Shown here in pieces: positions 55,750 to 60,507 of a DNA stretch of 64,000 bases. Location of the stretch: the NCBI GenBank assembly GCA_913019935.1, contig CAJVZC010000002.1, forward strand, positions 1 to 64,000, in the 5' to 3' direction. The notes under the pieces were generated by a model. That model was not told the DNA's origin. It made no database searches and was given only the letters and a program-made list of their open reading frames with translations. The stretch is from an uncultured Methylococcales bacterium (GTDB taxonomy: Bacteria; Pseudomonadota; Gammaproteobacteria; Methylococcales; Methylomonadaceae). Made by a program: the position numbers and the translations under genes. Numbering within the stretch: the first letter of the stretch is position 1; every line of letters begins with the position of its first letter.

Positions 55750-55826
55750 TGGCGCGCCCGGAGAGATTCGAACTCCCGACCGCTCGGTTCGTAGCCGAGT
55801 ACTCTATCCAGCTGAGCTACGGGCGC
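55750..55826 (-). tRNA. tRNA-Arg(ACG)
   Basis: GCGCCCGTAGCTCAGCTGGATAGAGTACTCGGCTACGAACCGAGCGGTCGGGAGTTCGAATCTCTCCGGGCGCGCCA. Confidence 0.97.
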
Positions 55827-56409: not shown

Positions 56410-57651
56410 TTAGTCGGCTACATTTACTTTCAAGACCGGCGTAAAGCCTATCTCACTTTCAAATGATTCTTTCATAATGCGCCTCACCAAAGGCACATCA
56501 GATCGTTTAACAATAAGACTATCATGAACGGGGTAAGCAGGAATATCATGCTCTTGACTGAGCCTGTGCATTGTCATGATAATAGCATCTGCCTCTCTTC
56601 GTTGCAGGTAACCCCAAGTCACATTAGCAGAACTTAAGGCCTCTAAAAATGGATACTTGCTCACAATAACCTTACCCACATCTTTAACTGGATAGTCTGC
56701 CAGATTAATATGCTTTTCTCTAAGCTTTCCAACTGAGTCTGTAGACCACCGAGTTAATGGTTTTAGTTTGGCCGAATAGGCAACAACCCACTGTTTTACT
56801 ACTGCTCTCGGAAGGCCTTTAATCTGATAAGGGTCTTTATTTAAATTAACAGGAATAACACGACCGTCTAACATACTCGCTACCAGACAAATCAAGGTAA
56901 AATGACTGGCTGTTATATCCACTTCTGCAACGGGTTCATCGTCTATCTTGAGCTGCAACCGTTTGGCCATATTAAGCAGTTGATAACTACCCCCCTCGGC
57001 ATACAAGCGTCCACCATCGGTTAGCACTGGATTTTTATCATCGTAATTAGAGAACGAACGATAAAGCCCAACAAACGAAACATCGGATAACGTATGCTTG
57101 CTCAGGTCATTATTAAGTCCACTGACAATACGGTACTGATCTTGATAGTGCTTAGAGCGACTCATGTTGCTGACCGATTTACCTTGAATCTTCCTACCTT
57201 TCTTATCTCGTTGACTTGGATATCTTGCACGCACTAAATGAGTAAGCGTAAAATCCTTAGCTGTTATTTCAGCGTTTAAACAATAGTCAACAAGCTTTTG
57301 GGTGATGTAATAGGTGGTCGCTATTCGTTCCAATTGCTCCCCTGCTACTTTAACCAAATAACCTTGCTCTACCAAATAACCCGAGACAAAAACAAAGACT
57401 CTATACGGAACGGATGAGTCCGAATAGGCGCCTGTTTTTTGACTTCTATATAACCCCCTATTGAGGTCTAGCTCAGTTAAGGTGATCACCGAAGACAAGA
57501 TGCGAACTAAACAATCGTAACGCTTGTTAATCGTTGCTTCACGCAGCTTATCACCCGCCTCGAATACAGACGGTTCAACTATCTGTTTAAGCAAACTGAT
57601 AGAGTCATCATTTATTGGGTAAAAGGATAGGGAGAAGTAATGTTGTTTCAT
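56410..57651 (-). CDS. compact family-A/T7-RNAP-like polymerase protein (TV-Pol-like), putative
   Basis: motif A-like VAEVDITASHFTLICLVASML, motif B-like LPRAVVKQWVVAY, motif C-like YLQRREADAIIMTMHRLSQEHDIPAYPVHDSLIV. Confidence 0.65.
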   Translation of the reverse strand: MKQHYFSLSFYPINDDSISLLKQIVEPSVFEAGDKLREATINKRYDCLVRILSSVITLTELDLNRGLYRSQKTGAYSDSSVPYRVFVFVSGYLVEQGYLVKVAGEQLERIATTYYITQKLVDYCLNAEITAKDFTLTHLVRARYPSQRDKKGRKIQGKSVSNMSRSKHYQDQYRIVSGLNNDLSKHTLSDVSFVGLYRSFSNYDDKNPVLTDGGRLYAEGGSYQLLNMAKRLQLKIDDEPVAEVDITASHFTLICLVASMLDGRVIPVNLNKDPYQIKGLPRAVVKQWVVAYSAKLKPLTRWSTDSVGKLREKHINLADYPVKDVGKVIVSKYPFLEALSSANVTWGYLQRREADAIIMTMHRLSQEHDIPAYPVHDSLIVKRSDVPLVRRIMKESFESEIGFTPVLKVNVAD

Positions 57652-57775
57652 GGGATCTATTAAACCTAACGACAGTGGAAGCTTGTATTCAAGTAACCAA
57701 CACCATAGCTTAAATTACACCCAATATGGCGCACTTATGGTAATAACTCTTTTCTAGCTAAACTTGTAGTGGTAC

Positions 57776-57973
57776 ATGATGACTACAAAACAGGACAAGA
57801 AACATACGCATCTATTTCCAAGAATGAAATTGGGAACACAGGAACGAGCAACGGAACTGAACAATGGCGGTGCAACACAGATTGTGTTGGATAGATACAC
57901 TAGGGAATCAGACAGAATTAATCCGATTGATTATTCAGATGTGACAACTAATATTACCCAAGAGGAGGAATAA
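57776..57973 (+). CDS. small hypothetical protein, 65 aa, NNGGATQIVLDR core
   Basis: ORF divergent from the polymerase-like gene; core repeated in an adjacent decayed copy. Confidence 0.55.
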   Translation: MMTTKQDKKHTHLFPRMKLGTQERATELNNGGATQIVLDRYTRESDRINPIDYSDVTTNITQEEE

Positions 57974-57975
57974 TA

Positions 57976-58155
57976 ATGGATTCCAAGAAGGTTAAACAGT
58001 ATGTTCCGAAATTGCGAGAAGTTCTGGTGCCTTAAGAAGATTGCAATTAAATTAACAACGGTGGTTCAACGCAGATTGTGTTGAACAGGCATGTGGGAAG
58101 CTCAACATTTAACAAGTCTAAACCAAAGAGTAGCAAGGTTAATAAGGATGGTTGA
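57976..58155 (+). pseudogene. decayed paralogue of the 65-aa ORF (MDSKKVKQYVPKLREVLVP* ... INNGGSTQIVLNRHVGSSTFNKSKPKSSKVNKDG*)
   Basis: near-identical core aacaacggtggttcaacgcagattgtgttgaacagg; internal stops/frameshift. Confidence 0.5.
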
Positions 58156-59524: not shown

Positions 59525-60201
59525 ATGATGGCTATAGCTATTACTTATCCCCTACTGCTCCTAATAGCCCCCATTACCGCCCAAGCACACTCTGGTAGAA
59601 CTGATGCTAACGGTGGGCATATGAACCGTAAGACTGGTCAGTATCATTGTCATAAGTCGTATTGTTCAGCACCGTCAGTCCCATCAGCAACACCAATTTA
59701 CATTTCCAATAACCAGAGCGCGCCCTCTACTCGTTACAATCGCAAGGATTGGCCTCATTGGATTGATGAAGACAACGACTGTCAGAACACTCGTGCAGAG
59801 GTTCTAATTGAGTCATCTCAAATTCCAGTAAAGTTCAAACGTAACAGAGGTTGTAGTGTATCTCACGGCTTATGGGTTGGTCCCTATACAGGGATGACCT
59901 TCACACAAGCATCAGACCTAGACATTGACCATATTGTGCCTTTGGCTCATGCGCATAGAACAGGCGGTGCTAATTGGTCTAGGGAGCAGAAAAGAAGCTT
60001 TGCTAATGACCCCGACAACCTCATTGCTATCGATGACAGGACTAATCAAGAAAAAGCGACAAGGGACCGGTTAGGTGGAAACCGCCCATAGAGTCTTGTT
60101 GGTGTGAGTATGCCAAGAAATGGCAATGGGTTAAGCAGAAGTATGGGCTTGCATGTAGTGAGAGCACGACAAGCATTACCTGTTATGAAAGATACTTGTG
60201 A
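59525..60201 (+). pseudogene. secreted YHYH + HNH/GmrSD-like (DUF1524-type) nuclease with an apparent -1 frameshift near 60083-60090
   Basis: AHSGRTDANGGHMNRKTGQYHCHK; DLDIDHIVPLAHAHRTGGANWSREQKRSFANDPDNLIAIDDRTNQEK; C-terminus WCEYAKKWQWVKQKYGL continues in the -1 frame. Confidence 0.7.
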
Positions 60202-60415: not shown

Positions 60416-60507
60416 TGGCGGAGAGAGAGGGATTCGAACCCTCGATGGGCTTTAAAACCCATACTCCCTTAGCAGGGGAGCGCCTTCAGCCGCTCGGCCA
60501 TCTCTCC
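60416..60507 (-). tRNA. tRNA-Ser(GCT)
   Basis: GGAGAGATGGCCGAGCGGCTGAAGGCGCTCCCCTGCTAAGGGAG...GGGTTCGAATCCCTCTCTCTCCGCCA, long variable arm. Confidence 0.97.

Follow-up and report, generated by a model that had tools for sequence, protein, structure and literature searches.

The two small open reading frames (mini-ORFs) that lie in tandem between tRNA genes in the window, by which we mean the whole 64,000-nt stretch of Methylococcales DNA that was analyzed, are best explained as copies of a small gene that was overprinted inside a phage gene, that also occurs as a free-standing tandem pair, and that is decaying in the window. We favor this explanation with modest confidence. The assembly from which the window comes is 1.02 Mb long and 65% complete, and the island that carries the pair is bounded by tRNA-Arg (55750-55826, minus strand) and tRNA-Ser (60416-60507, minus strand). 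Mini-ORF A (57776..57973, plus strand) is intact, with a homologue-supported start at 57779 that gives 64 codons. Mini-ORF B (57976..58155, plus strand) is decayed; it has kept its start and a strong Shine-Dalgarno sequence, GAGGAGGA (57962..57969, plus strand; pairing with the anti-Shine-Dalgarno sequence at -12.0 kcal/mol), and has two in-frame TAA codons ahead of its core. A preliminary description of the window had reported two tandem copies with a shared core, the second of them broken, and this was borne out. Both cores were located where they had been placed, NNGGATQIVLD in copy A (57855..57894, plus strand) and NNGGSTQIVLN in copy B (58049..58088, plus strand), with 80% identity across 40 nt. 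A degenerate core pattern found exactly two matches in the window and none in 100 dinucleotide shuffles. Counted directly, the two cores differ at 8 positions, 5 of them third codon positions. The wider family showed the same bias, and the earlier claim that the copies had evolved as protein-coding sequence was supported. The reported resemblance between the N-termini proved real as well, and MDSKKVKQYVPKLRE of copy B is similar to MDTKQDKKYTRKLRA of a copy on a viral contig. The core of window copy A contains an imperfect palindrome, which was rejected as a candidate feature because the phage copies, as judged by eye, lack it.

The mini-ORF had no match in Pfam, PHROGs, NCBIfam or PADLOC, nor in the phage and plasmid collections. 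Scanning with an alignment of the mini-ORFs gave 0 matches on viral contigs and, among genomes, matched only one other genome of the genus, G003; degenerate DNA patterns then revealed the viral copies, with L046 and L070 found first and L076-L080 next. On six phage contigs the homologous segment lies inside the gene for a large protein, which is read in another frame. In L070, the segment sits within an uninterrupted 2872-codon ORF, one base out of register, and the same DNA reads FDGYKSGQEVYAEIARLGKIGNAGRGDQTQQWWGYADSVAQKLQEI in the large protein and MATNQDKKYTQKLPDWAKLGTQEGATRLNNGGATLIPLRRSSKKS in the mini frame. The same nesting was found in the 932-943-codon ORFs of L076-L080, where the mini frame is open for 75 codons, so that in L070 and L076-L080 alike the mini-ORF occupies an alternative frame of a longer, intact gene. 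The large proteins of L070 and L077 are 52% identical over 628 aa. L076 is a tailed phage with the gene order GP3_package, Terminase_3 and then the large gene, which follows the terminase directly and has no Pfam domain. The large protein of L070 has a borderline ART-PolyVal domain (E=8.4e-7; 30.3 bits vs a cutoff of 31.2), and its contig also carries an integrase and SSB. On L046, a short contig, the mini copy is free-standing and the large frame is closed. A few hundred bases from this mini-ORF there is an RRXRR/HNH (IscB-like) gene (L046 904-2226, minus strand) with a repeated TTTTCAGGGCACGAACAAC upstream of it. In the G459 genome and in the Limnohabitans and Manatee Spring phages, the large protein was matched only downstream of the nested segment.

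A profile built from the large frame alone matched the window at 57763..57918 (plus strand, E=4.1e-11), where a relic of the phage frame overlaps mini-ORF A, reading DDYKTGQETYASISKNEIGNTGTSNGTEQWRCNTDCVG up to a stop and containing two TAG stops. The same profile matched both copies in G003, stops included. On this match, the DNA of the mini-ORFs derives from the phage large gene, and what the preliminary description had read was the second frame of that gene. L070 and L046 had first been found by mini-frame patterns, and both were recovered by a phage-frame pattern as well. The set of sequences is small, few of them are independent, and L077, L078 and L079 are near-identical.

Within the genus, the same tandem pair was found with both members intact on contig C147 of G003 (L013 2003-2197 for A, 2197-2379 for B). 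The stop codon of A overlaps the start codon of B (TGATG), and an AGGAGG-type site stands ahead of each. Identity between the window (G000) and G003 is 83-86% inside A, at chance level in the upstream flank, and again at chance level beyond about 60 nt downstream of B; the homology between the two genomes ends at the ORF borders. The C-terminal half of window copy B aligns with the C-terminal half of G003 copy B, and thus the tandem pair, to judge from this alignment, is ancestral and predates the split of the two lineages. In the mini frame, dN/dS was 0.13/0.32 for window A vs G003 A, 0.21/0.78 for G003 A vs G003 B, and 0.15/0.72 for window A vs G003 B. Two further genomes, G002 and G004, hold truncated scraps of the mini gene. 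Among 271 genomes of the order, the mini family turned up in this genus only, and no convincing match in other genera was obtained among 237 genomes of the family and 369 of the class; weak matches in other genera had scores near noise and were dropped. The G002 scrap (L010 889-985, minus strand) is joined to a frameshifted fragment resembling an rpoE-type sigma factor on a 1.8-kb contig, which may be an assembly chimera. Tens of bases separate the G004 scrap (L015 5586-5724, minus strand) from a fragment of a tmRNA 3' end, which resembles the remnant of an attachment site of an integrated element. In G003, the intact pair is preceded by a gene for a 205-aa Tat-signal protein (L013 1301-1918). 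It belongs to a multicopy family (also L041, L042, L043, L044 and L045), of which G003 has several decayed copies and G004 one. The family had no relatives in the rest of the bacterial family, in phages or in plasmids, and a region of roughly 250 bp upstream of the gene has been duplicated along with it. By eye, a tRNA-Lys-like remnant was seen immediately 3' of the G003 pair; Rfam did not confirm it, and it was set aside.

The origin in a phage gene also allows the main rival reading, that the copies are pseudogenized pieces of the large-protein gene, remnants of decayed prophages or satellites, and that the mini-ORFs are accidental out-of-frame readings with no product. The match of the phage-frame profile to the window and to both G003 copies agrees with this, as do the stops in the phage frame that are common to the copies, the good alignment of window copy B in the phage frame (with VCSEIARSSG and ADCVEQA), the truncated scraps in G002 and G004, and the state of the window pair itself, with no ribosome-binding site before A and a disrupted frame in B. 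Against it, the mini frame is the sole frame of six that is open in all 8 tested copies, whereas stops close the large frame in L046 and in the bacterial copies. No antisense frame was open in all 8 copies, so antisense coding found no support. When parsimony changes were counted on a frame-neutral nucleotide alignment, 50, 53 and 82 changes fell at mini-frame positions 1, 2 and 3 (P=0.0012), and outside the cores used as search patterns the counts were 43, 38 and 61 (P=0.0105). The third positions of the large frame showed no enrichment. Restricted to the three genus copies, the phase test gave P=0.05; restricted to the nested phage copies, it did not reach significance. The match in extent between the homology block and the ORFs also speaks against accidental frames, as does the retention each time of the same short segment out of a conserved region of roughly 630 aa.

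With a permutation that preserves clustering, the mini frame was conserved in nearly all pairs, the exception being window A vs G003 A, for which the constraint was not significant. Among the phages, it was conserved in V70-L077 (P=0.008) and L076-L077 (P=0.008), and in the same pairs the large frame was conserved too (P=0.01-0.04); the third frame was conserved in no pair. As far as these permutations and the open frames indicate, phage pairs keep both frames and bacterial copies keep the mini frame only. When the amino acids of the large frame were held fixed in the L070-L077 comparison, similarity in the mini frame reached z=6.2, above all 123 other windows. The other alternative frame scored high as well (z=4.7), which means that nucleotide conservation in general accounts for part of the signal. 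Synonymous divergence across L076, L077 and L080 dips to a pS of 0.12 vs 0.24 gene-wide, a dip that is unspecific, with 149 of 899 windows equally low. In L076, L077 and L080, no +1-frame stretch of the large gene is longer than the nested ORF; in L070 there are longer out-of-frame ORFs elsewhere in the gene. AlphaFold gave no confident fold for the mini protein (pLDDT 54), and the model was too poor for a structure search.

Shine-Dalgarno-like sites were found ahead of every copy but window A, each within the top 0-8% of nearby ATG/GTG codons. Pairing with the anti-Shine-Dalgarno sequence was -12 to -13.5 kcal/mol ahead of G003 A, G003 B and window B, and -7.4 to -8.5 kcal/mol ahead of the nested copies and the L046 copy. 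Window A had no such site (-2.9 kcal/mol), a point that the preliminary description had missed. Since window A has lost this signal and the frame of B is interrupted, the window pair is probably a relic in decay. The strongest sites stand exactly at the free-standing G003 copies, where stop and start are coupled, which counts against pseudogene fragments. However, because the sequence set is small and redundant, the synonymous dip unspecific, the phase test not significant in phages alone and the fold lacking, we hold the pseudogene reading to be unlikely and yet a serious contender.

The segment could also be a DNA or RNA element, for example a pac-like packaging site next to a terminase gene that integrative elements borrowed in tandem, with the coding appearance being secondary. 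The position of the large gene directly after the terminase genes in L076 would suit such a site, as would the excess nucleotide conservation in both alternative frames of L070-L077 and the closeness of the G004 scrap to the tmRNA 3'-end fragment. Set against this, no RNA fold was supported (consensus energy -2.2 kcal/mol, with an unfavorable covariation term), the mini region had no Rfam match, and the changes follow a three-base period in the mini frame, which together leave this alternative improbable.

The DNA homology, the difference in frame, the openness of the mini frame, its frame-specific conservation, the Shine-Dalgarno sites, the tandem coupling in G003 and the decay of the window pair are what the computation showed. 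An overprinted small gene could connect them as follows. In tailed phages, the mini gene is nested one base out of frame in the large gene, adjacent to the terminase where the neighborhood was seen, and its translation would start internally on the phage message, at a ribosome-binding site of its own. The segment would then have been copied into genomic islands of the methanotroph genus, where it stands as a separate, tandem and coupled pair, with the large-protein frame dead and the mini frame alone retained. In the window, this pair appears to be decaying, A having lost its ribosome-binding site and B its frame. We infer that the peptide is made and that it may act in conflicts between phage and host or between elements, for example as an interference or regulatory peptide on integrative elements, though a functional role in any specific form is doubtful. 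It is possible, and close to an even call, that the overprinted gene escaped its overlap, having been copied into chromosomes as an independent, duplicated and translationally coupled gene with better ribosome-binding sites while the original frame died.

Overprinting is a known origin of overlapping genes (PMC8227390, PMC4683798). Like the overprinted genes of viruses and bacteria described there, the mini family is a short second-frame ORF in a longer, older gene, is lineage-restricted and has no known fold. Unlike them, the mini frame is also found apart from its host frame, in free-standing tandem copies on bacterial islands, and its translation is predicted. The difference from known overprinting is, on the copies compared here, that nested and free-standing forms of one family coexist. 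The host gene resembles the phage polyvalent proteins, which are known from late-gene and virion neighborhoods (PMC5512222), in the 2872-aa length and borderline ART-PolyVal domain of L070 and in a homologue that adjoins the terminase; the mini-ORF differs in being another frame of the same DNA and not a domain. A word search of the main text of that paper found neither "overlapping" nor "alternative frame". Phage satellites such as SaPIs and PLE (PMC5052747, PMC10945586) offer a further parallel, as phage-derived pieces lie in chromosomal islands and, in some genomes, near tRNA or tmRNA ends. In contrast to satellites, no complete element was found around the window pair, no integrase was recognized among the island ORFs read and searched, and the 3' ends of the flanking tRNAs were not repeated inside the island. 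If the overprinting explanation is true, the two states of an overlapping gene would be present in one family, doubly constrained while nested and free-standing once released, and both the nested protein's own action and the change in selection after loss of the overlap would become testable. It would also mean that real genes can lie in short phage fragments read out of frame, where annotation discards them, and that conserved bacterial mini-ORFs can be another frame of a phage gene.

The preliminary description had further seen in the mini-ORFs a small partner, whether antitoxin, effector or cofactor, to the polymerase-like gene that lies divergently beside them (phrog_4756; 56410..57651, minus strand). 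That gene is a neighbor of the pair and lies outside the mini-gene unit. The two adjoin each other in this one window, and the linkage is not conserved in other genomes of the genus. In G003, the mini pair is on contig C147 and the polymerase-like gene, 61% identical to that of the window, is on C83. Remnants of the polymerase-like gene occur in G001, which lacks the mini gene; a mini remnant occurs in G002, which lacks the polymerase-like gene; and G004 has remnants of both on different contigs. The polymerase remnants of G001 and G004 occupy the same chromosomal place as in the window, and the mini pair is absent there. The two are thus unlinked in all other genus genomes that hold either gene, and no polymerase-like gene was seen beside the phage copies. 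With its homologues unlinked, the proposed co-occurrence was contradicted and the partner reading fails; we consider it very improbable.

As for the polymerase-like gene itself, phrog_4756 is an uncharacterized phage and plasmid family with relatives in Vibrio and Aeromonas phages and, beside an integrase, on a Sphingomonas plasmid. A profile search of the family against the PDB gave no match, and the AlphaFold model of the protein (pLDDT 36) was too poor for a structure search. In the family alignment, read by eye, the family-A-like landmarks D245, R282/K286 and HDS 376-378 are kept. The G003 gene is divergent from an XRE regulator and has, besides this regulator, a tmRNA gene alongside. At 59525-60200 (plus strand), the window encodes a YHYH-domain protein with a GmrSD_C/HNH nuclease end; its frame is apparently interrupted near 60091 and it may be a pseudogene. 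A homologue of this YHYH-domain protein sits near the polymerase-like gene in G003.
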